Source: a virus
Length of the DNA: 59,124 nucleotides
Virus record (IMG/VR): IMGVR_UViG_3300000228_000009
Location: 1 to 59,124 of that record
Direction: 5' to 3' (one strand)
The notes beneath the pieces are model-generated. The model was not told where the DNA came from and did not search any database. It saw only the letters and a list, made by a program, of their open reading frames with translations. A program made the translations under genes and the position numbers. Positions 1,414-18,825 of the stretch are shown here, in pieces (the first letter of the stretch is position 1; each line of letters begins with the position of its first letter).

Positions 1414-1857
1414 TTATTTATAATAAATTAATAAATTTTGTTTACCTAATGTTTCTTCAAATATAAATTTTACAATGTTCCAATCACCTCCCGCCAAGCC
1501 GCACCCAATCATTGGTGCACGTATTTCCCAACCGTTATATAATGAAGCAACCTTATGAAGACATTTTGCTATAGCAACGTAATCTACTGGAGCTTTAGAT
1601 TTACTTCCATAATAGAATTGTGTATAGCAGTTTATGATATGAAAATCGTTGTGTATAGTGGCAATTGATATAGTACCTAACTTGTTACGATCTCCATGAA
1701 CAGTATTTTTATCTACGGTGTATATAAGAGGATAATTTTGTTTAAGATACTTAGCAATACCTGCCCCCATGGTATGGAAGCAATTACAACCATGCAAAAT
1801 GACTGTTGGTTTAGTAAAATCAAGTTGTGAAAGTATGTCCGCTTTAGTTATTTTCAT
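1414..1857 (-). CDS. Macro domain protein (ADP-ribose binding/hydrolase type)
   Basis: 147 residues from the preferred start ATG at 1855-1857 (MKITKADIL), which has GGAAG upstream; an ATG 12 bases earlier lacks one. The pattern HGCNCFHTMGAGIAK (the macro-domain loop with NC..MGAGIA), a central strand region and IGCGLAGGDW near the end are the standard marks of the macro fold, which covers the whole protein. Known members bind ADP-ribose and some remove it from proteins, nucleic acids or ADP-ribose-1''-phosphate. In phages such proteins could act in NAD/ADP-ribose salvage or in reversing host ADP-ribosylation. Which substrate is used cannot be read from sequence. Compare the NADAR gene at 15567-16376. 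Confidence 0.85.
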   Translation of the reverse strand: MKITKADILSQLDFTKPTVILHGCNCFHTMGAGIAKYLKQNYPLIYTVDKNTVHGDRNKLGTISIATIHNDFHIINCYTQFYYGSKSKAPVDYVAIAKCLHKVASLYNGWEIRAPMIGCGLAGGDWNIVKFIFEETLGKQNLLIYYK

Positions 1858-1878
1858 ATAATCTTCCATATTTAAATA

Positions 1879-2088
1879 TTATTTATTTATCCAACAACAT
1901 ACATTTCTATTTACTGATTGCCTTGGTACTGGTACACCTAAAGTGTCTGTACATGCTTTACATTGTAAACTATGTTCTTCTGAAGTTAAGTCAGAATCAG
2001 GCACAAATAGACCTGACGTACCTGAACCTGCTGAAAAAAATTTACCACATGTATCACATCGAAGTCTGCTTAACTTTTCTTCCCACAT
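1879..2088 (-). CDS. Cys-rich, probably zinc-binding small protein
   Basis: 69 residues from ATG at 2086-2088 (MWEEKLSRL), with GAGAAT upstream. Contains two CxxC pairs (CDTC and CKAC) separated by about 30 residues that include GSGTSGLFVPDSD, which would form a zinc ribbon. Function unknown. The upstream gene stops 9 bases before this start. Confidence 0.6.
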   Translation of the reverse strand: MWEEKLSRLRCDTCGKFFSAGSGTSGLFVPDSDLTSEEHSLQCKACTDTLGVPVPRQSVNRNVCCWINK

Positions 2089-2096
2089 AATTATTC

Positions 2097-2414
2097 TCAA
2101 ATTGTATATTTTACATGTTTTATTCCTGCTAAGCGAATAGCCTCTTCACAAATTGGACAAGGTTTTGCATTCATAGGTTTTCCAGCAATAGAATATCTAC
2201 TTACAAAAATTTTATAAGCTTGTACTAAATTTTTACATTTAAGTATAGCTTGAATTTCTGCATGTATAAAAATTTTATCTGGAAAACCACATTTACAAGC
2301 TAGTTCTTTTTGATAAGGGTGAGTTTTTACATAACTATTTTTACCTATGCTTAATACTCTCCCACGTTTATCATAAATAATAGCTGTTATATTATGCTGA
2401 GTATGTGATGACAT
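2097..2414 (-). CDS. Cytidine/deoxycytidylate deaminase-like protein
   Basis: 105 residues from ATG at 2412-2414. Shows the zinc-dependent deaminase signature: HAE (zinc ligand His and proton-shuttling Glu) followed about 35 residues later by PCPICEEAI (the PCxxC pair). The family deaminates cytosine in nucleosides or nucleotides; in phages this usually supplies dUMP for thymidylate synthesis, but base-editing and tRNA-type members share the motif. It is short for a dCMP deaminase. No good ribosome binding site is visible at the chosen start. A longer frame starting with TTG at 2480 is not supported. Confidence 0.7.
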   Translation of the reverse strand: MSSHTQHNITAIIYDKRGRVLSIGKNSYVKTHPYQKELACKCGFPDKIFIHAEIQAILKCKNLVQAYKIFVSRYSIAGKPMNAKPCPICEEAIRLAGIKHVKYTI

Positions 2415-2451
2415 GTTTTTAAAAATTATAATGTATTCATTAAATTTTGTA

Positions 2452-2973
2452 TTAAATTGGTTTAACGCCGCCGGAAGCAATTACTCCCTTATTCATAGCT
2501 TGACGAAGTTCGTTACCAATTAAACCCTTGCAACTATATATATATTTAGCATTTTCTAAAGCTGCCGCCAAAAGAGCATTAATGTCATATATATCATCTT
2601 CATCATTAGCGTTTCGTAACGACCACTGATTTCCAATTTTATCTTCTTTTTTTAAAGTAAAATAGGCATCATCATATATATAGTTACCAATAAACATATT
2701 TATTTCATACACCCAATCACCTTTAGTATGATATTTATTTGATACGGCACTTTTAATATCATAATTGGTTAATTCCCAAAACATAGTGCATAGTGCGCTA
2801 CTGTGTAATATTTCTAATGTTTCTTCTGAATAAGTAATATCAGTATGTACCGTGCACAGTAATAATTTTTCTACAAAATTTTTAACATGTACATCGGTTT
2901 CCATATAGTTTATAAGCTCATCTTTTTGTTCTTGTAACCTAACTATGGTTCTGTTAAATAAGTTATTAATCAT
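2452..2973 (-). CDS. Hypothetical protein, 173 aa
   Basis: Soluble, mixed composition, no motif I recognise. Its start overlaps the end of the next upstream gene by 8 bases, which suggests coupled translation. The C-terminal 30 residues (GLIGNELRQAMNKGV) look like an amphipathic helix. Confidence 0.6.
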   Translation of the reverse strand: MINNLFNRTIVRLQEQKDELINYMETDVHVKNFVEKLLLCTVHTDITYSEETLEILHSSALCTMFWELTNYDIKSAVSNKYHTKGDWVYEINMFIGNYIYDDAYFTLKKEDKIGNQWSLRNANDEDDIYDINALLAAALENAKYIYSCKGLIGNELRQAMNKGVIASGGVKPI

Positions 2974-3313
2974 TATTATATTTCCGTATAAGGTCTATAC
3001 ATTCATTAACTTCGCCGAGTTCATAAGTATGTTCTATAATCATATCTTTTAAATGTTTTGAGTTTGAAATATAACATTCTTTTAATTCTTTATACGCTTC
3101 TTCTTTTGACTTACTATACATATCTCGTGCTATATAGGCTTTATGTTTATCTGGGTATTTTACTTCATATACAGTTTCTGTTGCCCCTAATAATAAAATT
3201 TCTTTCAATATTTCTATTTTGTCTATAAAAATTTTTGGTTTATTATTTACATCTTTAATATACGCGTCATATAAATAAACGTTATTAAAGTATTTAATAC
3301 ATTTGTCATCCAT
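2966..3313 (-). CDS. Hypothetical protein, 115 aa
   Basis: Start chosen at ATG 3311-3313 (MDDKCIKYF), which has TGAGG six bases upstream, in preference to the in-frame ATG at 3325. Charged, mostly helical-looking, with no recognisable domain. Confidence 0.6.
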   Translation of the reverse strand: MDDKCIKYFNNVYLYDAYIKDVNNKPKIFIDKIEILKEILLLGATETVYEVKYPDKHKAYIARDMYSKSKEEAYKELKECYISNSKHLKDMIIEHTYELGEVNECIDLIRKYNND

Positions 3314-3373
3314 TTTAAACCTCATTATTAGTGTGTCTTGTAATTAATACTAATAAATTAATATTGTTGTCTA

Positions 3374-3718
3374 TTATAATAATGTTTCGCCCCTAAGAAA
3401 AGCGGAAGTTGCTGTGTATTTTTTACTACATTTAAGTGATATATTTTGCCAATTAGAACAATTAGAAAAATCTACACGTAGAGAGTAACCCACTCTTTGA
3501 TTATAATTAGATGTTAGCCAAATATCTCCTAATCTTGAGCATCCAGTACATCTATACCTTTTGTTTTGATAAGTACAAAAGATAGGATTGTTCTGTAACC
3601 ATATATTATCACCATCTTTGAATTTATTATATTCTGGTTTTCTACATCTTATAAAAAATTCTTTTATTATTGGTAAGCTATCAGATACACCTGAATCAAG
3701 CCAGTCATCTATGTGCAT
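3374..3718 (-). CDS. Hypothetical Cys-containing protein, 114 aa
   Basis: Start at ATG 3716-3718 (MHIDDWLDSG), preceded by GGTGA; the longer frame begins with a weak TTG. Several Cys and Trp residues, including a CTGC pair in the middle, hint at a small metal-binding fold, but I do not recognise a family. Confidence 0.55.
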   Translation of the reverse strand: MHIDDWLDSGVSDSLPIIKEFFIRCRKPEYNKFKDGDNIWLQNNPIFCTYQNKRYRCTGCSRLGDIWLTSNYNQRVGYSLRVDFSNCSNWQNISLKCSKKYTATSAFLRGETLL

Positions 3719-3747
3719 AATAATCACCAAATATATAAATTAATATT

Positions 3748-4182
3748 TTAGTAAAGACTAAAAGTTCTAACTATTTTAGCCTGCTTTTTGTGCAACATAG
3801 TACGAAAATCTGAAAAATAAAATCGTTCTACAAATCCTTCGTATTCTACAGGAGTAAATTCAATTTTATATGGATGATACCAATGTTTTGGATGTCTTTG
3901 TTCTAATTCATTTAATGGATTATAAAGATGATTATCATTATTTACCATTTTACATATAATATCAGTTTTTTCCTCAACACATGAAAATAAATTCATAAAA
4001 GGTATTTTTACGATTTTATCATGTGGAGTAGTTGGAATAATAACACGTACATTGTCAACACCTATTTGTCTTAAACAAGCTAAGATGGCTTCCTCACTTT
4101 TGTATTTTAAATTTGCTAATTCTTCTAAAGACATTTTATAAGGTAATTCTTTTTCATAATATGAATCATAACGAGTTTCCAT
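3748..4182 (-). CDS. Hypothetical protein, 144 aa
   Basis: Start at ATG 4180-4182 (METRYDSYY), preceded by AAAGGTGA. Soluble, with charged N- and C-termini and aromatic-rich stretches (HPKHWYHPYKIEF). No known family recognised. Confidence 0.6.
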   Translation of the reverse strand: METRYDSYYEKELPYKMSLEELANLKYKSEEAILACLRQIGVDNVRVIIPTTPHDKIVKIPFMNLFSCVEEKTDIICKMVNNDNHLYNPLNELEQRHPKHWYHPYKIEFTPVEYEGFVERFYFSDFRTMLHKKQAKIVRTFSLY

Positions 4183-4202
4183 AATAGTCACCTTTAAAAA
4201 TT

Positions 4203-4391
4203 TTATGGTTCAAAAGTATGTAATTTATAATTGTCTTCTACTAATATATAATAATTAGACCCATAGCTTGAAGTATGATTATTAATTAGAAAATCAAGAA
4301 TAAGTTTGCCGTAAAACTGGTTTAAATTTTCAGCCACTAAAACATCACTTACTGTTTCTCTATCAAAATTATCAATACATATAATTTTCAT
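4203..4391 (-). CDS. Hypothetical protein, 62 aa
   Basis: Good ribosome binding site (AGGAAA) before the ATG. Small acidic protein with no motif recognised. Part of the minus-strand string of short genes. Confidence 0.55.
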   Translation of the reverse strand: MKIICIDNFDRETVSDVLVAENLNQFYGKLILDFLINNHTSSYGSNYYILVEDNYKLHTFEP

Positions 4392-4400
4392 AATAATTTC

Positions 4401-4616
4401 CTATTTTAATTTTTGTGGCAATTCATTTAAATAATGTAGTTGTTTAAGATACATTGAAATAGACTCAATTGATTTATCTTGCTCTGTTTCATAGAAAAGT
4501 TCAGGCCAAGAATATTTTACATATCTCCCAACAAAATATTGGCCCAGTCTTAAATGAGGTTTGCCTTCTTTTTCATACTCATTTAGAAGAATTGTTATAC
4601 TTGGTAATACACCCAT
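4401..4616 (-). CDS. Hypothetical protein, 71 aa
   Basis: ATG preceded by TGAGGT. Soluble, with a Leu-rich helical C-terminus. No family recognised. Confidence 0.55.
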   Translation of the reverse strand: MGVLPSITILLNEYEKEGKPHLRLGQYFVGRYVKYSWPELFYETEQDKSIESISMYLKQLHYLNELPQKLK

Positions 4617-4676
4617 TCAAATACCTCAAAAGGTTATTATTTACTTTACCCAAAAAACAGTACCACTATCTACAAA

Positions 4677-5063
4677 TTATTGGAAGGCGTAAAACTCCTC
4701 AACTTTGTATGAATTTGTGTTATTAGTATTAAACCAAACACCTGTATGAATAGCCTCATTAATTTTATTTAGAAATTCTTTTTCATTAGTAGAATGTGTA
4801 ATATTATTTATACAATAAATTATTGAGTCCACATCTTCATATTGTTTATCATGTTCATTATACCAACAACCCATTAAAATTATACCTTTTTTATTAGAGG
4901 TGGCAATATAAACCTTCATGCAAAGAATATTAGAAAGATATTGTAATTCAATACCATGTAAAGATGGTAAGTCTTCTATGGTATAAATCTTTTTTTGTTT
5001 AAAAAACAATTTAATAAAATAATGTTTTAATAAAAAGAAAATTGAAAGAAAAAAGTATCTCAT
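4677..5063 (-). CDS. Hypothetical protein with N-terminal membrane segment, 128 aa
   Basis: Begins MRYFFLSIFFLLKHYFIKLFF, a hydrophobic stretch broken by Lys and His, which is a poor signal peptide but a plausible membrane anchor. The remainder is soluble. No ribosome binding site is obvious. Unknown function. Confidence 0.5.
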   Translation of the reverse strand: MRYFFLSIFFLLKHYFIKLFFKQKKIYTIEDLPSLHGIELQYLSNILCMKVYIATSNKKGIILMGCWYNEHDKQYEDVDSIIYCINNITHSTNEKEFLNKINEAIHTGVWFNTNNTNSYKVEEFYAFQ

Positions 5064-5134
5064 AATTTTTATTTTGTTTATATTAATATTTTAAATTAAA
5101 TGCATTAGTAAGTAAAATTTTTAAACTTTTAATT

Positions 5135-5725
5135 TTATAAACTAGAAGCATGATAAGTGTTTGTTAGCATATCTATAGCTTTGGTTCTAGTTAGAATCAT
5201 TTCTCCGTAAAATGATTCATATATTAATGGATATCGTGCATATCCATTCGTTCCGTATTTATCTTTAAGATATTTGATAGAATCTTGTATACGGTTTTTA
5301 CCAGTTCTACATTTAAGACAACGCTCCATTAAGATTTTTACACTGTTTTCATCAGGAACATCTCGGTCAGCAGAGCTTATAAGCTCCGACAAGATGCTAC
5401 TATATTTACCAGTATAACTAGCTCTATGTTCTCTTATTGCTGATGTGACTCGATATTGAGATTCCAATGACATATCAGTTTTACCTGGATATGCTTCATT
5501 GATTGCAAACAGCGCACCAGCTTCGTGATGATTGTCTCTACCAAGATACAATTGCACATCATGCATTAGTGCTGCTGCTATTATTTCATCTTCTGGTATA
5601 TTAAGATTGAAATAGTTATTAAACATAATAGCTCTTTCAAAAACAGATTTAGCATGATTTAATTGGTGAGCCAAATCATTTTTATTGTAATAAGGTTCAA
5701 CAAATGATATCATTAAATTTAACAT
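5135..5725 (-). CDS. HD-domain phosphohydrolase
   Basis: 196 residues. Metal-binding pattern of the HD superfamily is present: H24, the H55-D56 pair in AALMHDVQLY, H66/H67, H100 in REHR and D120 in SADRD. Family members hydrolyse phosphate esters of nucleotides, including (p)ppGpp, dNTPs and cyclic nucleotides; the phage substrate cannot be told. AAGGAG lies 8 bases before the ATG. A second, distinct HD protein is at 35906-36481. Confidence 0.8.
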   Translation of the reverse strand: MLNLMISFVEPYYNKNDLAHQLNHAKSVFERAIMFNNYFNLNIPEDEIIAAALMHDVQLYLGRDNHHEAGALFAINEAYPGKTDMSLESQYRVTSAIREHRASYTGKYSSILSELISSADRDVPDENSVKILMERCLKCRTGKNRIQDSIKYLKDKYGTNGYARYPLIYESFYGEMILTRTKAIDMLTNTYHASSL

Positions 5726-5751
5726 TTTATTATCTCCTTAAATAATATACA

Positions 5752-6135
5752 TTAGCAAATAAAATTTTTAAATTTTTTAATCTCACCAATAACTTCTTTA
5801 CTGATCACAACATTACCTAATAAAAGTGGAATAATAGAAATTTGGCTTTTATTTCTAAGTCTAGTTGTACTAATTCCTGTAGCATCTTGAATCATTTTTG
5901 TTGGAATAAGCATACCATCATCCATTTTTCTAACATTATTTTCATCTAATTCCTTACCGTTAAATATTAACAATGCTGAGTCCACAGTTTTAAAAACTTC
6001 TGCGGCAGTAGGAGTTAAAGCCCAATAAGGACATTTGTTTCTTTTAATATCGGTTGCATAATATAATGTAGCACCATGTTCAACATTAATATTTTGTGAA
6101 GTTATAATATACCCGATTACAGTAATTTTATGCAT
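5752..6135 (-). CDS. Hypothetical protein, 127 aa
   Basis: Ribosome binding site AAGGT upstream. Pattern of short strands, with a Lys/Ile-rich end. No domain recognised. Confidence 0.55.
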   Translation of the reverse strand: MHKITVIGYIITSQNINVEHGATLYYATDIKRNKCPYWALTPTAAEVFKTVDSALLIFNGKELDENNVRKMDDGMLIPTKMIQDATGISTTRLRNKSQISIIPLLLGNVVISKEVIGEIKKFKNFIC

Positions 6136-6178
6136 TGTTATTTACCTTATAATAATATAGAATAGTTGTCAATGACTA

Positions 6179-6433
6179 TTATTTTAAAAAGTCTAATAAC
6201 CAAGGAGCATTATACACGATACATGAATTTTTAGGATCAATGTTTTCGCCATCTGAATCATACACAGTTATTTCATAGATATTCGCATCTTCCGATACAC
6301 ATATTGAAAATTGAGCGTTATCTAAAGAAAAATTAGTCCAGTACTCCGATCCCCTTTTTAGAGTATTTATGAGATTATAAGTTTCTAGCTTGAGGACAGT
6401 TTTTACTCCCTGTATAATTTTACTAATATACAT
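6179..6433 (-). CDS. Hypothetical protein, 84 aa
   Basis: Start at ATG 6431-6433 (MYISKIIQG), with AAGAGA upstream. A longer frame would run into the neighbouring gene at 6444 and has no ribosome binding site. No family recognised. Confidence 0.55.
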   Translation of the reverse strand: MYISKIIQGVKTVLKLETYNLINTLKRGSEYWTNFSLDNAQFSICVSEDANIYEITVYDSDGENIDPKNSCIVYNAPWLLDFLK

Positions 6434-6443
6434 AATATTTCTC

Positions 6444-6707
6444 TTATAAATGAAAAATGTTACCAGGCAAGTGAAGTGCATCATTACGATACCATCGTTT
6501 ATCATCGTTTATATACTCAATTGCAGGGCTGTTTTCTTTATAATGCCTGCACCATAATTTATCACCATATACTCTGTAAAGTTCACTACTGCTGTACCAC
6601 TTCTTAGTTCCGTTTACATGTTCACATGCAAATTCATTTACTCTATGCACTTTATCGTTTAAGTACCAAAATTTATTATTATTGATAACTACTTTATATT
6701 CACTCAT
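6444..6707 (-). CDS. Trp/Tyr repeat protein (WYxND..HR type)
   Basis: 87 residues with a degenerate internal repeat: FWYLNDKVHR, KWYSSSELYRVYGD, ENSPAIEYINDDKRWYRNDALH. This resembles the W-Y-x-N/D-G-x-x-H-R-x-x-G-P-A-x-E repeats of unknown function that occur in large phages and giant viruses. Each unit probably forms beta strands. Good spacing to its neighbours. Confidence 0.6.
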   Translation of the reverse strand: MSEYKVVINNNKFWYLNDKVHRVNEFACEHVNGTKKWYSSSELYRVYGDKLWCRHYKENSPAIEYINDDKRWYRNDALHLPGNIFHL

Positions 6708-6767
6708 AATATTTACTCCTTAAATGAAAATTTTAATATGAATAGATATCAGTACATACAACAATTG

Positions 6768-6992
6768 TCAATGGGAAAAATTAAATTCTTCTTTATTAAT
6801 AACAGTAACATCAAACGTGATTATATTGAATGTTTCCAAGAATATTTCAATAGTCTTATCTTCCGGCGGAGTATCTTTACTTCGTAACCCTAACCATGCG
6901 TGATATATTTCACGTACTCTATTATCAAATTGTTTCCTACCAGTACAAATATTTGATATATTTTTATATTTTTTATTTTGTAATGCAAACAT
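6768..6992 (-). CDS. Hypothetical protein, 74 aa
   Basis: GAGGG ribosome binding site. Basic N-terminus, hydrophobic strand-rich C-terminus. No family recognised. Confidence 0.5.
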   Translation of the reverse strand: MFALQNKKYKNISNICTGRKQFDNRVREIYHAWLGLRSKDTPPEDKTIEIFLETFNIITFDVTVINKEEFNFSH

Positions 6993-7014
6993 AATGTTTA
7001 CCCTCTTGAATTAT

Positions 7015-7212
7015 TTACTCATTTAGAATTTCAATATCAATAGTTACTTCAGTATCAGGATTTTTACAATATTCAACAATTTTATACCCCAATTGTTGAG
7101 CATATAATTCTGCACCTTTATGAGATTTGAAGTAATATAAACAATGAGTATCTATCCCACTAAATGCATATGAAGAATTTTCATAAATTGTTAAGACATA
7201 TATACTATCCAT
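7015..7212 (-). CDS. Hypothetical protein, 65 aa
   Basis: AAGGGA ribosome binding site. Small acidic protein; the pattern HKGAELYAQQLGYKIVEY looks like a helix followed by a strand. Upstream (7213-7385) is AT-rich sequence with possible promoters that I cannot confirm. Confidence 0.55.
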   Translation of the reverse strand: MDSIYVLTIYENSSYAFSGIDTHCLYYFKSHKGAELYAQQLGYKIVEYCKNPDTEVTIDIEILNE

Positions 7213-7385
7213 AATGTTTATCCCTTAGAAATTTAACTTAACTACTATTACACCATAATTATTATAATGTAACAGTATGTAATTATTTAACTTTTTATTA
7301 AATATTACTACTTTTATAACTTATTGATACCATTGACAATAATAAATGATAATTATACACTATTTATTTAGTATTTATTATTATT

Positions 7386-8000
7386 TTAATAAGATGTTCT
7401 GGTCCTCTTTTCGAAAGATATAATCTCCTGCATAATTTCCTTAGAATAACCAAAAATATTTAAAATAATACCAAATTCTTTTAAAAATTTAGATATATTT
7501 TCTTGTTTAATAGCTAACCCAAAAGTAATTGAAAGCCAGAAATTATTGTAATAATATTCATCGAAAGAAGTATATAAATTTGTTCTATATTTACCTATTT
7601 GAGTGTATACAGTAAAGATTTTTGTCTTTATAAGTACTTTAAATTGAGCATAACCTAAACCAATGTAATAAGGAGATTGCCTATTATACGGTTCAATATA
7701 TGGATAATCTACTGGTTCGACCAAAATAGATCTAGAAACATAAGCTTTAAAGTGATTTCTACATTCATCTTCTTGTGCTTTAGGAGATAAAGATTCCATA
7801 GTATAAAAATGTATATTACCACCTTTTCCAGTTATATCACCAGCAATAATAATATCTCCTTTTTCAGGATCTTTTCTATAATTATCGCACAATTTATTTA
7901 TTAGAAGTGCTTTAGAAGTAAAAAGCTCTTTCTCAATCTCCTGAACAGATTCGCCATGATCATGAAAAATTTGAATAAGTGAAGGTGTTTCAGTTTGCAT
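7386..8000 (-). CDS. Hypothetical protein, 204 aa
   Basis: Good AGGAG site. Soluble; central YIEPYNRQSPYYIGLGYAQF is aromatic-rich. No family recognised. First gene of a run of five closely spaced minus-strand genes from 9183 to 7386. Confidence 0.6.
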   Translation of the reverse strand: MQTETPSLIQIFHDHGESVQEIEKELFTSKALLINKLCDNYRKDPEKGDIIIAGDITGKGGNIHFYTMESLSPKAQEDECRNHFKAYVSRSILVEPVDYPYIEPYNRQSPYYIGLGYAQFKVLIKTKIFTVYTQIGKYRTNLYTSFDEYYYNNFWLSITFGLAIKQENISKFLKEFGIILNIFGYSKEIMQEIISFEKRTRTSY

Positions 8001-8009
8001 AATAATCTC

Positions 8010-8192
8010 CTAATTAATAAAATATTTTTTCGGAAGAGGAAAAGCTTTATTAAGACCTATACATAGTTCACAAACTTCATCAAATTCTTTTTTAGAAGGG
8101 ACACTTTCACCTTCTTCTAAATTAAACAATACTACAAAATTATATACTTTATTAGCTTCTTCTATTCTTATTTCTCCCCACTCTTGTTTCAT
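8010..8192 (-). CDS. Hypothetical protein, 60 aa
   Basis: Small acidic protein with AAGGAG upstream. No motif recognised. Confidence 0.55.
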   Translation of the reverse strand: MKQEWGEIRIEEANKVYNFVVLFNLEEGESVPSKKEFDEVCELCIGLNKAFPLPKKYFIN

Positions 8193-8207
8193 AATAGCTC
8201 CTTATAT

Positions 8208-8417
8208 TTAATATTCAAGAGCAATTAAAAGAGCTATAGTACAGTTACCTTGTTCATCAGCAGCTTGTCTAACTACATGCTCGTCAAAATAGACTTCACT
8301 AACTTTTGTACTATCATCATTATCTATTATAACATAACCATTAGCAACAGGCTTTTCTGTTCTGACGCAGTCACAGTGACATTTTAATCCTTGGCCTTTT
8401 AATATACATACACTCAT
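8208..8417 (-). CDS. Hypothetical protein, 69 aa
   Basis: Start at ATG 8415-8417 (MSVCILKGQG), with AGGAGAT 5 bases upstream; the longer frame would overlap the neighbour without such a site. Four Cys near the N-terminus (CILKGQGLKCHCDC) suggest metal binding. Confidence 0.55.
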   Translation of the reverse strand: MSVCILKGQGLKCHCDCVRTEKPVANGYVIIDNDDSTKVSEVYFDEHVVRQAADEQGNCTIALLIALEY

Positions 8418-8427
8418 ATTTAATCTC

Positions 8428-9183
8428 CTACATAAGACATTGAGCATTTGATTTTATTGTCACATTACCTTCTCTTACTTGACATTTATCCTCTGTAGAT
8501 ATAAGAGAGGCATATTTTAAAACCCGCCATTGTAAATTTCCCATGGAAAGATTAGAAAATATTTTTCTTACTTCTATACCATTAACATGTGTTAGTATAG
8601 TCTTTACTTCTCTGGCTATACCAGTATTATCCCGCATAACTGCTGTTTTATGCCAATGATATACATCATATTTACCATCAGCATACTCATAAAGCATGAT
8701 TAGTTTTCTAAGTATTAAAGGAGTTTTAAAACTTTTTGCTGGCTCCCAGGAGATAACATTATCAATTATAGACACTTCAGGTACAAATAATGGTCTAAAA
8801 TTAGGATCTTTAAGTACACCACAATATCTCTCAGCTAGTGTTAAATTATTCTCTGTTTTATCATGTATATGCTCAGGAAAGATATAACAAGAACTTAACT
8901 TTACACTCATATTAACGCCATCGTTTGTAAATTTATGGTTGTATTTCATATGTGTTCGGCGCTGAGGAATTTCAGCAAAAAGTAGCTTAAAACCATACTG
9001 AGTCAAACTTTTCTCTGACCAACCATCAAAACTACAATATCCTTTATGAAGCTGTATAAGCTCTAAAACATTATTATCACAACTTTTAGCAAATCTTTTT
9101 AAACTATCAATAGAACAATCAACACAAGTAGAAGCAATAAAATTCCTATTGTTTGCAATAATGCTTTTTTCTAGTTCGGACAT
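8428..9183 (-). CDS. Hypothetical protein, 251 aa
   Basis: AAGGAG before the ATG. Two Cys near residues 20-23 (CVDC) and a long mixed alpha/beta body. No family recognised. Confidence 0.6.
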   Translation of the reverse strand: MSELEKSIIANNRNFIASTCVDCSIDSLKRFAKSCDNNVLELIQLHKGYCSFDGWSEKSLTQYGFKLLFAEIPQRRTHMKYNHKFTNDGVNMSVKLSSCYIFPEHIHDKTENNLTLAERYCGVLKDPNFRPLFVPEVSIIDNVISWEPAKSFKTPLILRKLIMLYEYADGKYDVYHWHKTAVMRDNTGIAREVKTILTHVNGIEVRKIFSNLSMGNLQWRVLKYASLISTEDKCQVREGNVTIKSNAQCLM

Positions 9184-11646: not shown

Positions 11647-11750
11647 TTTCATAAGATTTTTATGTTTAATAAACTAACATGTATATAATAGCAACAGAGT
11701 GATGTTTACAACTATAAAAAATTTAAACTTCAAGTAATAGATTACATCAC

Positions 11751-11766: not shown

Positions 11767-11799
11767 TTCTATTAGAAGTTTTTAATGAAAGGTAAAACT

Positions 11800-12762
11800 A
11801 TGAACGAACTAATTGTAAAAGAACCATTTAATTTTTCTGTTATTGAAACAATGGAATCAGTTAAATTAACTGAAATGTCGTTTATGGATAGAACTAAACT
11901 TTATTGTGAAGTTGAAGCTAAGTCTTTTTATCTTCGCGGTAGAATTCTTCAATCAATAAAAGAAGACAACTGTTTTAAAGAAGCTGGTTACGAAACATTT
12001 GAAAAAGCTGTGAAAGATATTTTAAGTATTAGTAGGAGTTTTGCTTATAGAATTATGGATGCTACTACTACTTATGAAACTTTGTCGCCCACTGGGCGAC
12101 ATTTTTTGCCAACATCTGAAAGACAATTAAGACCTCTTACAGGATTAGAACCAGAACAACAAATTGAAGTATGGCAAGAAGTAGCTAAAGATAAAGTACC
12201 TACTGCTAAAGAAGTACAAAAAGCAGTAAATAAAAAATTAGGTAAAAATATTCCACAAAAAGATAAAATAAAAGTACCAGTAACATCCTTAGAAGTACCT
12301 ATAGTGCCTATTGAAGATATCACAGCTGCAAAATCTTATGAAATTTTGTCCACAATTGTGGACATTTTGCCTACTGAAAATAATAGTACTATAGATATGT
12401 CTAAATATATTACTATAGAAGAACATAATAGAATTGTTTTAGAATATGAAAAAGCTTATATGATAGATATTGAAAAATTAATGAATAGAGTTTCTGAATT
12501 AGAAAGTAGATTAAGTTTTTTTGAGAAAGATTCTATTAATCCAACCCCAGAAAAATCAACTTTATTACCCAGAGAAATTGTATTTAATTTTGTAAAACAA
12601 CACGGTAATGCTATACAATGTCTAGCATTACTATCAGATTATCTTACTAATGAAAGATTATATAATCTTTTTGTTAAAGTAAGAGAAGACTATAAGATGA
12701 CCACCCCACCCCCAGCATGGGATTTAGAAATAATAAATGCTACAGGAATTTTGAGTTTTTAG
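11800..12762 (+). CDS. ParB/KorB-like DNA-binding protein
   Basis: 320 residues from ATG 11800 (MNELIVKEPF), with AAAGG upstream; an in-frame ATG at 11785 has no ribosome binding site. The N-terminal third includes a helical segment (CFKEAGYETFEKAVKDIL, then SRSFAYRIMDA) that looks like a helix-turn-helix. Then comes LPTSERQLRPLTGL plus GKVPTAKEV-like KDKVPTAKEVQKAV, a pattern I associate with plasmid and phage DNA-binding proteins. The C-terminal half has a coiled-coil-like stretch. Two family palindromes lie inside its own coding sequence (12083 and 12347) and three lie upstream, pointing to autoregulation or a partition/centromere-like unit. The function is inference. Confidence 0.55.
   Translation: MNELIVKEPFNFSVIETMESVKLTEMSFMDRTKLYCEVEAKSFYLRGRILQSIKEDNCFKEAGYETFEKAVKDILSISRSFAYRIMDATTTYETLSPTGRHFLPTSERQLRPLTGLEPEQQIEVWQEVAKDKVPTAKEVQKAVNKKLGKNIPQKDKIKVPVTSLEVPIVPIEDITAAKSYEILSTIVDILPTENNSTIDMSKYITIEEHNRIVLEYEKAYMIDIEKLMNRVSELESRLSFFEKDSINPTPEKSTLLPREIVFNFVKQHGNAIQCLALLSDYLTNERLYNLFVKVREDYKMTTPPPAWDLEIINATGILSF
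12083..12101. promoter_or_regulatory. TGTC..GACA palindrome, site 4 (inside coding sequence)
   Basis: 9-base arms TGTCGCCCA and TGGGCGACA around C, the same core as site 2. In frame it encodes LSPTGRH just before the LPTSERQ motif. Confidence 0.75.
12347..12364. promoter_or_regulatory. TGTC..GACA palindrome, site 5 (inside coding sequence)
   Basis: Perfect 18-base palindrome TGTCCACAATTGTGGACA. The stem differs from sites 1-4, yet symmetry is kept. It encodes LSTIVDI just before LPTEN, parallel to site 4. Confidence 0.75.
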
Positions 12763-13039
12763 TATGCAAGGTTAGTTTATTCAATACTGTTTAAATTATT
12801 TATTTCCCGGCCACAAAAATTCATCTGTAAAAAATCTCAGGATATGAATAGGTCGCCTGTCTAGAGACCAAAAAACCGGCCATCCCTCCCAACTACACTC
12901 CGTACCACCAACTTGCTTGATGCCAGAGGAAAAAATAAGTTGTACCACTTATAATAATCCATGATATGAAATACAAGTTTTGACAATAGCATATTTCCCC
13001 ACAATAAAATATATATAATAATAAGTACCATATTATAAA

Positions 13040-13075
13040 TTGTACCGTACCACCCCGAAGGATGATACGGTACAA
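13040..13075 (-). terminator. Terminator with UUCG tetraloop
   Basis: On the minus strand a 16-bp stem (TTGTACCGTATCATCC with its partner, two G-U pairs) closes a C(UUCG)G tetraloop, followed by TTTATAAT. Immediately after the stop of 13083-14012. The wobble pairs work only in the minus-strand RNA, which fixes its direction. Confidence 0.8.
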
Positions 13076-13082
13076 TAACGGC

Positions 13083-14012
13083 TTAGATAGGCATCTGCCC
13101 ACTAAGCATGGTTCCTGCAGCAGCTGATACTGGAGGAACTGCTACAGTTGGGACGGCTCCGAATGATGCCAACATTTTTGCAAATGCAGCCGGATCAATT
13201 CCTGCTGGCATTTGTACCGGTGCAGGAGTAGGAGTAGGAGCAGGTGCAGGTACCACTGCTGGTGCAGGTACTTGTCCTCTCATCATAGCTTGTAACATTG
13301 CCACCATGTTAGGATCAATTCCTGCTGGCATTCCCGGTGTTGCTGCATTGATCAATTGTGCACCAGCCGGAAGCATTATCCTTGCATGCCCATAGGTAGT
13401 ACTTCCTGATATGTACTGCATTTCTTTACGGGATCTTTTGATGAAGTCCCAAGTCTCCGCGTCTGCGTGACCTGTAACGTTCCAGAAGGGAGGCCGTGCT
13501 GCGAATGTGGCTTGTCCGGTTGCTCGGTAATTGGCAATCTCATTCTGAATAACCGCATCGGCGTCGTTGCCCCAAATCGGAAGTCCTTTCATAACAAAGG
13601 ATGTTCCGTTAACCATGATTTCCCGACCAAGATGATCCACTTGCGGCTTGTCATCAATAAAGAGACGTTTCTTGAACGTGTTTACGTCCAGTTCACAAGA
13701 GAATTCCTTTCCAGCCGTAATGGCCTTGGCGCAAAGGTCAGCTAGACCACCACCAGGTTTGGCATTGTTTCCATTCCATGCTACAATACGAATGACCTCT
13801 GCCTTCCCTTCACGATACTCCCCTGTGGTTGGGTCGGTATAGTTCATACCGTTTATATACACGTTACCCTCCCATCTGGCCGAAACTTTTTTGCCGTTTG
13901 TAATGTGTTCCGGATAGTAGGTACCACCGTGTTGAACACCAGTAGCTGCATTCTTCGTACCTGCTGCCCGACCTGCTACCAACATTGCTACAAACTTGCT
14001 TGCACTTGCCAT
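13083..14012 (-). CDS. Possible single-stranded DNA-binding (OB-fold) protein
   Basis: 309 residues from ATG 14010-14012 (MASASKFVAML), AGGAG upstream. Residues about 40-150 are strand-rich with VIRIVAWNGNN, GLADLCAKAI and GKEFSCELDVNTF, a layout reminiscent of SSB-type OB folds. The last 90 residues are low-complexity Pro/Ala/Met repeats (PAPAPTPTPAP; PAGIDP occurs twice), like the disordered tails of SSB proteins. Higher GC than the flanking plus-strand genes. It has its own terminator and two upstream TAGTGGTACTG boxes, consistent with strong independent expression. It could also be another structural or DNA-binding protein. Confidence 0.45.
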   Translation of the reverse strand: MASASKFVAMLVAGRAAGTKNAATGVQHGGTYYPEHITNGKKVSARWEGNVYINGMNYTDPTTGEYREGKAEVIRIVAWNGNNAKPGGGLADLCAKAITAGKEFSCELDVNTFKKRLFIDDKPQVDHLGREIMVNGTSFVMKGLPIWGNDADAVIQNEIANYRATGQATFAARPPFWNVTGHADAETWDFIKRSRKEMQYISGSTTYGHARIMLPAGAQLINAATPGMPAGIDPNMVAMLQAMMRGQVPAPAVVPAPAPTPTPAPVQMPAGIDPAAFAKMLASFGAVPTVAVPPVSAAAGTMLSGQMPI

Positions 14013-14078
14013 GATAATTCTCCTAAAAAAAGATAAAAGTTTGAGCAAGGGAACAATTCCACAAGCCCATCGTAAGAC

Positions 14079-14151
14079 CAGTACCACTATTCCCCATTTC
14101 CATCCCCATGAACAGAAACAGGTACACCAACCTCAATAGACAGTACCACTA
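14079..14151 (-). promoter_or_regulatory. Two TAGTGGTACTG boxes upstream of the SSB-like gene
   Basis: Minus-strand TAGTGGTACTG at 14079-14089 and 14141-14151, here without a hairpin partner. The same box occurs upstream of several other minus-strand genes between 16.6 and 22.1 kb. Confidence 0.5.
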
Positions 14152-14315
14152 CTCCCCACAACTTTAGGTTCAATACTTAAAATGTTTCCATTTTTATCGT
14201 AATGAATCCAAATAATTGTGCATTTAGGTAATGAATTCAAGTATTTAATTGTACGTCCGAATTCATTTCTAATTTGATGAGAGTTAATTACTATGCCTGA
14301 ACGAATCATGTCCAT
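14133..14315 (-). CDS. Hypothetical protein, 60 aa
   Basis: Start overlaps the end of the metallopeptidase-like gene by 10 bases. Basic N-terminus, strand-rich middle. No family recognised. Confidence 0.5.
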   Translation of the reverse strand: MDMIRSGIVINSHQIRNEFGRTIKYLNSLPKCTIIWIHYDKNGNILSIEPKVVGSSGTVY

Positions 14316-15574
14316 AGTTTATATTCCTCTTGTCCGAGGATATGTCCTGCTGGAAGTTTAATGCTGGCACGTACTCCAGGATTTAGGTGATCCCCAAGAA
14401 CGTACATTATCTTTGCTCCCATCTGAGCTTCACGAGCCCAAGTTTTTAAATTTCCCATGTCATCTACTGCGTTGGGATTTTGTGCAACAAGAGACCGTCT
14501 ATGTAGTGTACCATTGATATTAAGGAATAAAGTATACTTAGGAAGGTTTTCTTTCGTAAGCATACCTGTTATTCCCATTGTGGTTGGTTGATTTTTGGCA
14601 TATTTACCTTGGTTATCTAACGTATCCATATGAGTGAATATTTGAGAAGCGCCAGGAATGTGGGCAATGTTGATAGGATCTAATATTACACCAGGGTTAT
14701 TATACCCTCCTTCGTTTGTGAACTCTCCCTTGGAAACAACATGCCAGAACATGGTACGGAATACTGTCTCTATTGTGCTGGCCATGTTTGGTACAATTGC
14801 TGGCGGATTTGGGTCTTCATATTCTGTATATTCTTCTGCATAAGCTTGTGATTCAGGCACTGTACGCGTTGGTTCAACAGGTTGAAGTTGCTCAGTTTCC
14901 TGTATTGTTGTTTCTAAGAATTTTGCTGGTTCTTCTATCCAAGGTTCTTCATCTTTTGATAAAGCCTCGAATGTATGTGAAATAGAAAGTTCTAAGTTTT
15001 TATCTGGGTCATAATACCCCAGATTATTTTTGTGCATCCAAACTTGAAGATCTTTCCACATCATAGGAGTTTCTTTTGTGTCCTCCTCCAAAGAGTCGAT
15101 AAATTCCTTAATTTGGCCATCCAAGAAGTCCCCAAACAGTGTTATGTTACAATCCCAATTCTTGGCTATTAACCAAGCTTTTTTACCTGCTTCTTTTGCA
15201 CCTTCCTCATCAAGGTTATTGTGGTTGAAGTCGTTATTTTCGAAGCTGACTTTGAGGTGCCACGCTTCATGGATAACAGTATCAAGAAGTTCGTGCAATA
15301 ACATCATACGAATACTTGCATACATGTTTTCTTCTTTCATGCATAGATCTAGAGAAGATCCAAAGTGTTTCCCCAAGTTAATGCTTATTGAACGAGATGG
15401 GGTGTGAGCAATACCAAAATAATCGCTAGGTACATTTTCATTATATGCAATCATATTGATTGCTTCGTGCGGGCATATTGAAAGTACAGCATTTCGTATA
15501 AGCCACCGTAAATGTGGCGATACTAATTTGCAGCCCGTCTCAAGAATTCCAGGTACTTCGTTGTATTTATTCAT
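14306..15574 (-). CDS. Putative zinc metallopeptidase-like protein
   Basis: 422 residues, AAAGGAG upstream. Contains HEAWH (H102, E103, H106), the HExxH zinc motif, within a hydrophobic helix (LHELLDTVIHEAWHLKV), and acidic residues about 17-20 positions later (LDEEGAKEAG) that could give the third ligand. The C-terminal half, after an acidic Pro/Glu linker near 240-270, is a different domain with unknown fold. Such proteins occur in large phages, but a target is not known. The motif is clear; catalysis is inferred. Confidence 0.6.
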   Translation of the reverse strand: MNKYNEVPGILETGCKLVSPHLRWLIRNAVLSICPHEAINMIAYNENVPSDYFGIAHTPSRSISINLGKHFGSSLDLCMKEENMYASIRMMLLHELLDTVIHEAWHLKVSFENNDFNHNNLDEEGAKEAGKKAWLIAKNWDCNITLFGDFLDGQIKEFIDSLEEDTKETPMMWKDLQVWMHKNNLGYYDPDKNLELSISHTFEALSKDEEPWIEEPAKFLETTIQETEQLQPVEPTRTVPESQAYAEEYTEYEDPNPPAIVPNMASTIETVFRTMFWHVVSKGEFTNEGGYNNPGVILDPINIAHIPGASQIFTHMDTLDNQGKYAKNQPTTMGITGMLTKENLPKYTLFLNINGTLHRRSLVAQNPNAVDDMGNLKTWAREAQMGAKIMYVLGDHLNPGVRASIKLPAGHILGQEEYKLWT

Positions 15575-16376
15575 TGTGTTCTCCTTTGTATGTGTTTCTT
15601 ATGGCCATTATCATTTTACCCAGAAAATTAATGCCAGGCTTTCCTTTGCATTTTGGGCAGTAACAATCACCCCAAAAGTTGTCATGCCACCAGTTACCTT
15701 CAACTAACGTAGCATTGCCTGTAGAAAGTAAAAGATTTTTGAATTTAGGAATCTTAAACTTTTCTTCTAAGGCTACCTTCATTACTTCAAGTTTTACTGT
15801 GCTCCAATCCCAGCACAGTTCTGCTTTTTTTCCTTCTTCTTTTGCTAATGCTGCTGTTGCTAAGGCCGCAATACGAGGCCTTTCTTCAGCAGAAAATTTC
15901 CAAGCTTGATAAAAATGCTCCGTTGAAGAATACATTATTCCTTGATATTCGAATTCACATGGAGCGAAGTTCGAAAGCCAGCTGTATTCCCCTCTGAATT
16001 CTTTGATCTTTTGTGGTTTGTTCAACCAACGCGAGAAATCTACAATCTCTCCGTTATATTTGGCTCCATACTTCTGTAGATAGTATGTAAGAAGATGCCT
16101 GTGGCAAAATTCTCCAGGTGGGCAGAAGCAGACCAGAACTACATACTGCATGTTAAGCAGCTTATTCCAAGCTTCTGTGTTTGTTACACCCATTATTAAC
16201 TCATGATACTTTTTTATATAATTCTGTTTGTCTCCGTCGGTTTTCCCGGATTTCATGTAAGTACTCACCATGTCCCAGGTTGGGGCAAATAGTTTTCCGA
16301 ACGGATCTTGACCTTTCACTGTGATATCCAGCCGGTGTGGCCCTGGATACCGATATTGTGCTGTCCACATTTCCAT
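15567..16376 (-). CDS. NADAR domain protein with N-terminal DUF488-like domain
   Basis: 269 residues, GGAGG upstream. Residues about 125-262 match the NADAR (YbiA-like) pattern: FRGEYSWLSNFAPCEFEY, STEHFYQAWK, NWWHDNFWGDC and a closing LGKMIMAIR. NADAR proteins act as N-glycosidases on riboflavin intermediates, and some remove ADP-ribose from guanine in nucleic acids. The N-terminal 110 residues carry CFC...FCHRHLL, resembling DUF488-type domains. Two further Cys pairs lie at CYCPKC. The start overlaps the TAA of the signal-peptide gene upstream (TAAATG), and the stop overlaps the next gene by 8 bases, so it lies in an operon. Domain fusion is read directly; reaction on ADP-ribose is inference. 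Confidence 0.75.
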   Translation of the reverse strand: MEMWTAQYRYPGPHRLDITVKGQDPFGKLFAPTWDMVSTYMKSGKTDGDKQNYIKKYHELIMGVTNTEAWNKLLNMQYVVLVCFCPPGEFCHRHLLTYYLQKYGAKYNGEIVDFSRWLNKPQKIKEFRGEYSWLSNFAPCEFEYQGIMYSSTEHFYQAWKFSAEERPRIAALATAALAKEEGKKAELCWDWSTVKLEVMKVALEEKFKIPKFKNLLLSTGNATLVEGNWWHDNFWGDCYCPKCKGKPGINFLGKMIMAIRNTYKGEHNE

Positions 16377-16586
16377 TTAATTTTCCTCCTCACTGTCTTT
16401 TAATGAAATACATATCTTCTCTGCTTCTTCCTCTTTTGTTTTATCATCCCAATTTGAATCCATTGGGACAGTTAACATTAGCATATTATACTTCCAGTAA
16501 CAACTGATGTTTTCATATACTATATCAGCTCTTACTGGTGTTGATAATATTGAAAAAATGAAAATAGAAAATAGAAATAGCTTCAT
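16377..16586 (-). CDS. Small exported protein, 69 aa
   Basis: Clear signal peptide (MKLFLFSIFIFSILSTPVRA, cleavage expected after Ala-20), then a short acidic mature domain with two Cys that may form a disulfide. AGGAGGT ribosome binding site. Function unknown; exported to the periplasm. Confidence 0.65.
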   Translation of the reverse strand: MKLFLFSIFIFSILSTPVRADIVYENISCYWKYNMLMLTVPMDSNWDDKTKEEEAEKICISLKDSEEEN

Positions 16587-16633
16587 GATTTACCTCCTTT
16601 TGAATTAATTGGTTAGTTACCTACCTCAAAGAA

Positions 16634-16644
16634 TAGTACCACTA
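16634..16644 (-). promoter_or_regulatory. TAGTGGTACTA box
   Basis: Variant of the TAGTGGTACTG box, 48 bases upstream of the start at 16586, without hairpin partner. Confidence 0.4.
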
Positions 16645-16677
16645 CACCCCAACCATCCCCACACCCCATCTACACAA

Positions 16678-16770
16678 AGGCTACCATAAACTACAGTCGT
16701 AGCCTACGGAGTCCCAGGGTTCTTTTAAATGGTTGTGCACCCTACCAGGCAGAAACCCGATAGGATGCAC
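16678..16770 (-). terminator. Two hairpins after 16775-17041
   Basis: First in minus-strand order: stem 16735-16770, GTGCATCCTATC paired with GGTAGGGTGCAC via two G-U pairs. Second: AGGCTAC/GTAGCCT at 16678-16705. The wobble pairs fit minus-strand RNA. No strong T-run; termination or processing signal. Confidence 0.5.
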
Positions 16771-16774
16771 TTTG

Positions 16775-17041
16775 TTAAATTTGGTGATACTTATACAAAT
16801 CTTCTAGTTGTTCTTTAAGATCACAAATTTCTTTAACCATTTCTGCTCTTGATTTATCTCTGTATAGCTCTACCATAGGGTCAGTAATACCGTACTCTGC
16901 TGGATTCTCACCAGCATTAAGTATTTGTTGATATTCACTGTCGGGGTCACTATGATCTAATGCTGCAGTATTGTATAGCATTCCTCCCCGTCTTACCCAA
17001 ACATATGTTGTTACTACTTTTCCTACTTTCTTTGTTGTCAT
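16775..17041 (-). CDS. Hypothetical protein, 88 aa
   Basis: AGGAGAT upstream. Basic N-terminus with a strand (VVTTYVWVRRGG), helical charged C-terminus. No family recognised. Confidence 0.6.
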   Translation of the reverse strand: MTTKKVGKVVTTYVWVRRGGMLYNTAALDHSDPDSEYQQILNAGENPAEYGITDPMVELYRDKSRAEMVKEICDLKEQLEDLYKYHQI

Positions 17042-17054
17042 TTCGATCTCCTAA

Positions 17055-17378
17055 TTATAAATATGGATTAACTTCTTTTGGCGGCGGGAATAGAATCATA
17101 CCGTCTTCATCTACTGCCATGAAAGACTTTTCCTCAGCATTATAATAAACAGTATACCCATCTTCTTTGTGATGTGTATTCATTACTTTCATTTCCTTAG
17201 AATTTGTTTGAGTTAGAAGTTCAGCACCTTCTTCAGTCACCAGATCATGGTAGCGAAGTTTATTTTCTCTTATCGCGTAGCCAATCACATCTAAGGCAAA
17301 GAAGTTATCTTTACAAAGACTGTCAACTAACCTGCGGCGAAGAGTTAAAATAGTTTCAGCAGTTATCATATTAGACAT
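17055..17378 (-). CDS. Hypothetical protein, 107 aa
   Basis: Start at ATG 17376-17378 (MSNMITAETI), with AAGGAGAT upstream; the longer frame overlaps the previous gene without such a site. Looks helical in the first half and strand-rich in the second. No family recognised. Confidence 0.6.
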   Translation of the reverse strand: MSNMITAETILTLRRRLVDSLCKDNFFALDVIGYAIRENKLRYHDLVTEEGAELLTQTNSKEMKVMNTHHKEDGYTVYYNAEEKSFMAVDEDGMILFPPPKEVNPYL

Positions 17379-17388
17379 AGTAATCTCC

Positions 17389-17769
17389 TTAAGCGTTGAT
17401 TTGAATGAATTTATATATACTGTTAATGGACCGTTGTGAAAGATTGCCACACCATTCGAATCCTTCGTTTGATTTAATCGCGTTTAACATTTGTTTTACC
17501 CCGCAGATGGAAGGAACTTCATGCATACTGTTGAAGTTTTTCCATACTTTAAGGATGTCATTCTTTCTTTGTAGTGTAACGTAGTTTTTACCTTTACTAC
17601 GTGCTTTAGTTATAGATGAAGATGTTGGTAATACTTGCATCTTACTTATATAAGCCATTAGCTTTATTAATGTAAGTTCTTCTTGTGCTTTACGTAACTC
17701 CATAAATTTATTATTTACTCTATTAGTAGCAGCAATTACTAAACCATTTGAATCTACGTTATATACCAT
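17389..17769 (-). CDS. Hypothetical protein, 126 aa
   Basis: AAAGGAGAACACC leader before ATG. Lys-rich, helical. The C-terminal part (SICGVKQMLNAI) might contain a DNA-binding helix, but no family is recognised. Preceded by the hairpin leader described at 17833. Confidence 0.55.
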   Translation of the reverse strand: MVYNVDSNGLVIAATNRVNNKFMELRKAQEELTLIKLMAYISKMQVLPTSSSITKARSKGKNYVTLQRKNDILKVWKNFNSMHEVPSICGVKQMLNAIKSNEGFEWCGNLSQRSINSIYKFIQINA

Positions 17770-17832
17770 GGTGTTCTCCTTTGGCCTTAGCCTTTGGTTT
17801 TTTAGAGCCGCCGAAATGGAAGCTCCTTCAAA

Positions 17833-17870
17833 AAACCAGTACCACTACATTAATGCAGTGATACTGGTTT
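17833..17870 (-). terminator. Intrinsic terminator with TAGTGGTACTG box
   Basis: Minus-strand stem of 16 bp with two G-U pairs (AAACCAGTATCACTGC with its partner) and a 6-base loop, followed by a T-run. Lies 3 bases after the stop of the SleB gene. Its 3' arm is the repeated TAGTGGTACTG box. Confidence 0.85.
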
Positions 17871-17873
17871 AGG

Positions 17874-18278
17874 TTAATGTTTAATCTTTTTAGGAACTGC
17901 TTTAATTATTAAGCGTTCCTTGTAGAATTTGTGTGTCCCTATTTGTGTTATGTACGTAAGGTCTTTTCGCCATATAGGCTTTTTATCTTGCCTATGATAG
18001 TGGGTAGAACCTTTTGTAAAATCATAACCTTTTACAGCTATGATAGAACTCTTAAGACATTCAAGTAAAGCTTTCATGTCTGTCGGAGTCCATGATTTTT
18101 GTGTGTGGGTCCAACTAAACTGTTTAGGATCAAGCACAACTTCTTTTACTGATTGCTTTCTTTCCTTAACACGATTAATTGTCACATGGGCTACAGCCAC
18201 CTGCGCTAACTGATCTTCGCTTCTGGCTTCATGATAAACATTCAATGTTAACCACACAAGAGCACTTAGTAAATCCAT
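17874..18278 (-). CDS. SleB-type cell wall hydrolase
   Basis: 134 residues. NVYHEARSED (E17 is the conserved family Glu), QVAVAHVTINRV, KQFSWT and STHYH follow the order of the SleB/hydrolase_2 family, which cleaves peptidoglycan glycan strands. Length equals the catalytic core. The first residues are hydrophobic (LLSALVWLTL) but no cleavable signal peptide is clear, so export would need a holin or disruption of the membrane. Second lytic enzyme besides the lysozyme at 32240. Confidence 0.8.
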   Translation of the reverse strand: MDLLSALVWLTLNVYHEARSEDQLAQVAVAHVTINRVKERKQSVKEVVLDPKQFSWTHTQKSWTPTDMKALLECLKSSIIAVKGYDFTKGSTHYHRQDKKPIWRKDLTYITQIGTHKFYKERLIIKAVPKKIKH

Positions 18279-18282
18279 GAGG

Positions 18283-18825
18283 TTACTCTCCTATGTAGGC
18301 ACCAAGTTCTTGCTGTCTGTCCTTAATGCGTTCAATGAAACGAGATAAAGTTTCATGATTTCCCAGATTCATTACTGTAATACCCATATCTTGGGATAAC
18401 CGTAGCGCTTGTCCGGTCCCTCCCGAAATTTTTCCGTCAGGAGTCCAACAAATGATCAAAGAGCAACCCTCAATGATCAAATAGTTTCTGGCATGCAATT
18501 TAAAAGCACCTCGTGTTAGTCTTGCAGAGTTTGGATGGTATTTATGAACTGACTCTATTGCTTTTGTGTGAGTCTTGTCATTAAATACCATGACGCTCTT
18601 GTTATGAAGGGTTGCTACCCACGCAGATTCATAACTGCCCCAAGGTAAGAAAAGTTCGATAGGTCCTCGTACCTTGTTGGCTCCATTGGCAAACGCTTGA
18701 TCAGCACCTAATGCAGCCCCGGTATTACACGTATGACCGTCAATGGCCATAAGTGTTCCAATATCCTCCATCATCTTAATAATATCAGGAGGGGTTTGTC
18801 TTGATCCTATACCTGCGTATTTCAT
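18283..18825 (-). CDS. SLOG-like (Rossmann, nucleotide-binding) protein
   Basis: 180 residues. Starts KYAGIGSRQTP with NTGAALGADQAF and LFLPW, the pattern of the SLOG superfamily (DprA, LOG, and sensor domains of several defence systems). ISGGTGQALRLSQ near residue 140 supplies the second nucleotide-binding loop. SLOG domains bind nucleotides, including ADP-ribose-derived signals in some immune systems, and some act as hydrolases. Whether this one binds, degrades or sequesters a signal is unknown. ATGA overlap with the next gene. Confidence 0.7.
   Translation of the reverse strand: MKYAGIGSRQTPPDIIKMMEDIGTLMAIDGHTCNTGAALGADQAFANGANKVRGPIELFLPWGSYESAWVATLHNKSVMVFNDKTHTKAIESVHKYHPNSARLTRGAFKLHARNYLIIEGCSLIICWTPDGKISGGTGQALRLSQDMGITVMNLGNHETLSRFIERIKDRQQELGAYIGE

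Follow-up and report, generated by a model that had tools for sequence, protein, structure and literature searches.

The 59-kb linear IMG/VR record IMGVR_UViG_3300000228_000009 (59,124 nucleotides, analyzed over its whole length and called the window below) encodes a macro domain protein, a protein with a NADAR domain and a SLOG protein, three folds related to ADP-ribose. A preliminary description of this DNA had located the three genes correctly, all on the minus strand; the start that it gave for the macro gene, position 1857, is an internal ATG of the open reading frame (ORF) in Table 1. The macro/NADAR/SLOG set recurs in related phages, often in clustered form, as set out below.

Table 1. 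Features of the window discussed in the text, with the three ADP-ribose-related proteins first.
Feature	Coordinates	Strand	Length	Basis or context
Macro domain protein	1414..1869	(-)	151 aa	phrog_335, 2fg1/5m3i; non-conserved flank
DUF488-N3 (aa 24-103)–NADAR (aa 129-261) fusion	15567..16376	(-)	269 aa	PF22751 + PF08719
SLOG protein, DprA-like subgroup	18283..18825	(-)	180 aa	phrog_768; AlphaFold2; Foldseek
HExxH...E zincin-like protein	14306..15574	(-)	422 aa	Overlaps fusion gene by 8 bp
SSB-like OB-fold protein	13083..14000	(-)		Homologous to L130:9947-10861 (G039 member) by alignment
Cell wall hydrolase (PF07486)	17874..18278	(-)		E = 1.2e-18; 4 bp after SLOG gene
Small ORF, signal-peptide-like N-terminus	16377..16586	(-)		Abuts fusion gene

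The protein previously described as a NADAR protein is a two-domain fusion. Its C-terminal part matches PF08719 (3e-20, 73.5 bits, cut-off 35.1), in agreement with that assignment, which had missed the N-terminal DUF488-N3a domain (PF22751, 6.6e-10, 39.8 bits, cut-off 27). DUF488-N3 belongs to the rhodanese-phosphatase superfamily (RapZ-C/DUF488/DUF4326 clade); the C-x-C...CHR motif is present, with C83, C85, C91, H92 and R93 invariant in four homologs, and the DUF4326 Pfam model gave no match to the fusion at E<0.1. The NADAR domain retains E153, K160, E226, D232 and W235, of which the first three match the aligned residues of YbiA and 8bau and do not vary among five homologs. Previous work established the catalytic residue positions of NADARs and an E125 position that is Glu in the YbiA subfamily, Asp in DarT1-associated NADARs and His in other phage NADARs (PMC11543638). 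The window protein has Glu here and is YbiA-like by its Protein Data Bank (PDB) match (2b3w, 4e-12); it also weakly matches Phage_30_3. It shares the fold and the catalytic E, K, E, D and W with YbiA and the DarT1-associated NADAR antitoxins, but differs from the latter in its YbiA-type Glu, in its fusion to DUF488-N3 and in having no recognized DarT alongside. T4 gp30.3 is likewise a phage member of the NADAR superfamily, of a different subfamily. NADARs are known to undo the ADP-ribosylation of guanine, in DNA as well as in RNA (PMC11543638, PMC11125620, PMC11833690), and by analogy hydrolysis of guanine-linked ADP-ribose is the predicted activity of this domain. An ADP-ribosyltransferase–NADAR toxin-antitoxin pair was rejected, as no such transferase was noticed beside the gene, although not every ORF was scanned. 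Full-length homologs of the fusion were found only in contig G001 (51% identity) and at locus L133, and none of the INPHARED records aligned over 80% of it. An AlphaFold2 model computed without an alignment reached a predicted local distance difference test score (pLDDT) of 34.5, and the fusion assignment rests on sequence.

The SLOG protein matches phrog_768 (1.5e-40) and, below threshold, Pfam LDcluster4 (4.9e-5), and its AlphaFold2 model, built with 42 sequences (mean pLDDT 95.4), has a SLOG/DprA-type Rossmann fold, which bears out the earlier SLOG-like call. Foldseek matched the model to DprA, which took most of the top places, Moco carrier protein, LOG and the ThsA SLOG domain, the last weakly (7uxs, E 6.8e-3). 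In a search of the PDB with the SLOG profile, DprA was likewise the sole family hit (1.6e-4), with the GSR and RN motifs aligned in both. LOG phosphoribohydrolases carry the motif PGGxGT..E; the window protein has SGGTGQALR at this place and GGTG...E occurs in 0 of the 42 sequences, so assignment as a LOG enzyme was rejected. Although it shares fold and motifs with DprA, the window protein is a single domain and matches one of three tested residues: of R48, R49 and K133 of HpDprA, which were shown to bind DNA (PMC4489622), R48 corresponds to R9, R49 to Q10 and K133 to A107 (K109 lies nearby). The ThsA SLOG domain is similar in fold, and binding of 3′ cyclic ADP-ribose (3′cADPR) by the window protein is conjectural. 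Separately, a SLOG homolog at L165:3430-3924 contains two in-frame stop codons and may be a pseudogene or belong to a recoded phage.

The macro family assignment also holds. The protein matches phrog_335 (1e-45) and the solved macro domains 2fg1 (6e-12) and DarG 5m3i (2e-6), and although its score against Pfam Macro (1.1e-3, 19.3 bits) falls just under the cut-off of 22, homologs in relatives exceed it (27.5 bits in L131, 23.2 bits in L133). It contains the motifs NCFHTMGAGIA and GCGLAGGDW, and the Macro fold, GAGIA and GCGLAGGDW are common to DarG/TARG1-type and BT1257-type macros. In contrast to DarG, in which the catalytic lysine is K80 of the Taq protein, the window protein has Gln at the aligned position, as does BT1257 (2fg1), and this Gln80 is invariant in five macro homologs. 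Because of this replacement, DarG-type removal of thymidine-linked ADP-ribose from DNA is unlikely to be its activity; a DarG-type antitoxin or DarG mimic was rejected on the same ground, which counts against the preliminary reading as it was worded. Nearby in this variable flank lie dCMP-deaminase-like (2097-2480) and HD-domain (5135-5725) genes.

Taken by themselves, these assignments would also fit metabolic housekeeping, in which the NADAR domain, like YbiA, acts on reactive riboflavin-pathway intermediates and the macro protein clears Appr-1''-phosphate in support of nucleotide or NAD metabolism. The YbiA-like match with its Glu, the annotation of the macro profile as a phosphatase and the dCMP deaminase and deoxynucleotide kinase encoded in the window are in line with this. 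However, no riboflavin or NAD-synthesis gene was recognized among the ORFs examined, and the recurrence of these domains together with SLOG and DUF488-N3, described below, is unexpected for riboflavin clean-up; we consider this explanation quite improbable.

Relatives of the window were identified by its portal protein (152 in IMG/VR). Since they include contigs of 234 and 238 kb, and since the sole named-phage relative is Bacillus phage G (21% identity), the window most likely represents part of the genome of a large phage, perhaps a jumbo phage, from an uncultured clade. The closest relative, G001 (portal 83% identical), is itself a 55-kb fragment with ∼45 to 50 ORF pairs syntenic with the window. 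It keeps the 13-22 kb block, with the SLOG protein (62%), cell wall hydrolase (60%), fusion (51%), zincin-like protein (62%) and SSB-like protein (66%), but has almost nothing in common with the window in the macro-bearing flank at 1-9 kb. Along the window, G+C content rises from ∼27% at 1-11 kb to 37-44% at 12-22 kb, the part that contains the conserved SLOG/NADAR block.

An alignment of DUF488-N3 led to nine IMG/VR loci, and in six distinct contigs the DUF488-N3 gene is followed by the HExxH zincin-like gene and then the SSB-like gene. At L133, the macro, cell wall hydrolase, DUF488-NADAR, SLOG, zincin-like and SSB-like genes lie on one strand within 8.4 kb, with the macro, DUF488-NADAR and SLOG genes in a single 5.7-kb co-directional block. 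At L135, a YpsA-type SLOG gene overlaps a DUF488-macro fusion, followed by two small ORFs and then NADAR, zincin-like and SSB-like genes. DUF488-N3 has thus changed partners between lineages: one carries it fused to NADAR, another to macro. In the two longest contigs it is unfused but keeps its place ahead of the zincin-like and SSB-like genes; the other folds cluster ∼20 kb away: NADAR, YpsA-SLOG and macro span 4.3 kb in G009 (234 kb), and SLOG, a gp30.3-like NADAR (phrog_652) and macro span 8.1 kb in G039 (238 kb). Seven portal relatives of 57-189 kb without the DUF488-N3/SSB cassette have none of the folds. A further cluster (L012; YpsA, macro and NADAR pieces) was left uncounted because it seems fragmented and contains a transposase-like ORF. 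These arrangements point to a conserved core that consists of the DUF488-N3-NADAR fusion plus SLOG, in a co-directional block with the zincin-like and SSB-like genes, with macro as a more mobile member.

Could the three folds have met by chance? Each of them is common in large phages: according to a 2022 study (PMC9503650), ∼48% of medium and jumbo phages have NADAR and 31% of jumbo phages have SLOG, and homologs of the three window proteins occur in 500, 893 and 2,722 INPHARED records. Within the window the spacing is unremarkable (p ∼0.2 for the three folds, 0.08 for NADAR and SLOG). The preliminary wording, co-occurrence but not an operon, does not extend to the relatives, where the set recurs and is often clustered and partly fused. 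Specifically, the spans under random placement gave p = 0.001 for G009, 0.0034 for G039, 0.017 for L133 and 0.0045 for L135 (combined 5e-7), and cassette presence was associated with the folds among long portal relatives (Fisher p=0.003, or 0.01 with fragment G041 counted separately), all of these values overstating independence because related phages share ancestry. L133 and L135 were found via DUF488, and so their macro, NADAR and SLOG content is independent of the search and their DUF488 content is not. Macro lies within 8 kb of SLOG in 11 of 57 loci and NADAR does so in 5, compared with 0 of 80 portal-region loci. Further caveats on all of these statistics are the incompleteness of the contigs, the use of structural regions as controls and search models derived in part from these very proteins. 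Together with the two alternative DUF488-N3 fusions, to NADAR and to macro in separate lineages, these data are strong evidence that the clustering across relatives exceeds chance, and coincidence is very unlikely. The linkage suggests a functional module for anti-defense or DNA repair, not a haphazard assortment of genes.

We consider that the window may hold part of a modular ADP-ribose-handling set whose NADAR, DUF488-N3, macro and SLOG members would together counteract NAD+-dependent attacks by the host around the replication of phage DNA, a reading to which we give about even weight for and against. The data show the identities of the domains, their retained catalytic residues, the conserved linkage and the swap of fusion partners; the substrates, the order of reactions and the counter-defense role we infer as follows. 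The NADAR domain would cleave the N-glycosidic bond that joins ADP-ribose to a guanine base, its substrate being phage nucleic acid or a small ADP-ribose derivative, and the attached DUF488-N3 domain may process the released ribose or phosphate product, since the related DUF4326 is predicted to process phosphates on the ribose of ADP-ribose or its breakdown products (PMC9503650). Soluble derivatives of ADP-ribose could be the substrates of the macro domain, and the SLOG protein may bind a nucleotide ligand or single-stranded DNA.

Several results weigh against this reading, in addition to the shared ancestry and the DUF488-based sampling given above. No macro counterpart was found in the syntenic G001 contig, and this nearest relative has instead a Nudix gene (PF00293, L002:18636-19058) in the equivalent variable flank. 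Among solved structures searched by sequence, none was a DUF488-N3 homolog of the fusion's kind. The SLOG protein is nearer to DprA, by profile and fold, than to cADPR-binding SLOGs such as ThsA. The T4 NADAR is active in vitro, yet it failed to relieve the toxicity of DarT1 in cells (PMC11125620), and protection against DarTG can hence not be taken for granted. Accordingly, of the counter-defense kit envisaged in the preliminary description, the families are right and the general idea is reasonable, fitting the proposal of PMC9503650; the DarG-type role is unlikely, and interception of ADP-ribose signals is hypothetical for a SLOG protein that is closest to DprA, lacks the LOG motif and matches ThsA-SLOG weakly. 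Removal of cADPR by the gene set is speculation, because, according to a 2026 preprint (PMC13232231), no enzyme degrading 2′/3′cADPR was known before the RyR-domain phage protein that it describes.

The DprA-like character of the SLOG protein and the conserved SSB-like and zincin-like neighbors raise a different explanation, that the block is chiefly a DNA replication or recombination module and host defense is not its main target. SLOG would then be a DprA-like single-stranded DNA binder working with SSB, the zincin would trim DNA-bound proteins, DUF488-N3 would process DNA ends and NADAR would be a repair glycosidase for damaged bases. However, the poor match to the HpDprA DNA-binding residues, the presence in L135 and G009 of YpsA-type SLOGs in place of the DprA-like one, a replacement that suggests a small ligand common to both types, and the tie of macro to the set by fusion and adjacency argue otherwise, and we regard this explanation as credible though not likely. 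A variant of the ADP-ribose-handling reading, which we hold to be unlikely, is a replication-coupled eraser: the fusion (DUF488-N3-macro in the sister lineage), produced alongside the zincin-like protein and the phage SSB, would strip ADP-ribose from single-stranded viral DNA and finish the lesion, with the SLOGs as ligand sensors. Such an eraser would amount to a phage module devoted to removing ADP-ribose from DNA and repairing it.

The ADP-ribose counter-defense idea was published in 2022 (PMC9503650). That study describes viral fusions in which a rhodanese-phosphatase clade is joined to SLOG, Macro and NADAR, and proposes that these three folds and Nudix, which it finds together in DNA viruses more often than expected by chance, may remove signals derived from ADP-ribose. 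The networks reported there, which include DUF4326, have the same folds and fusions and carry the same anti-immune proposal as here, whereas the rhodanese-type domain of the window is DUF488-N3a by Pfam, has zincin-like and SSB-like genes as linked neighbors and comes from an uncultured clade. No SSB or metallopeptidase linkage was found in the main text of that study. Hence, the DUF488-N3/zincin/SSB linkage and the exchange of DUF488-NADAR for DUF488-macro are apparently new. If the ADP-ribose-handling reading is correct, DUF488-N3 domains gain a functional context, ADP-ribose chemistry beside SSB; the partner swapping suggests related jobs for the unrelated NADAR and macro folds; a small defined cassette becomes available for trial against DarTG, Thoeris and other NAD-using defenses; and these genes are placed in a large-phage clade that is widespread and nearly devoid of named relatives.

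Among the neighboring genes, the zincin-like protein matched no Pfam or PHROG family, and its assignment is based on H102, E103, H106 and E123, which are invariant in six divergent homologs. IMG/VR scans with three closer members returned only the two relatives already known, and the cassette is rare in IMG/VR at the sensitivity of these scans. The SSB-like assignment follows from the G039 member, which matches PF00436 (1.1e-5, 25.8 bits, cut-off 26) and phrog_44 and aligns with the window protein. The cell wall hydrolase gene is kept as a neighbor in G001 and L133, and the small ORF beside the fusion gene has a 39% identical counterpart at the equivalent place in G001.

Beyond these phages, a profile search of genome contigs with DUF488-N3 gave one locus, in an Anaerolineae metagenome-assembled genome, where a DUF488-N3 ORF adjoins an ORF that is SLOG-like by eye and has no Pfam hit (L141:5839-6919). 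DUF488-N3 is fused to a further phage partner, DUF5131, at L139:9251-10381. Elsewhere in the window, the terminase ORF (37785-40910) has a ∼460-aa insert relative to G001, probably an intein. The major capsid gene, compared with that of G001, is split in three (46233-46445, 47538-47651 and 48694-49482); no Rfam intron match was obtained in this region (46233-49482), and endonuclease-like ORFs lie between the parts.

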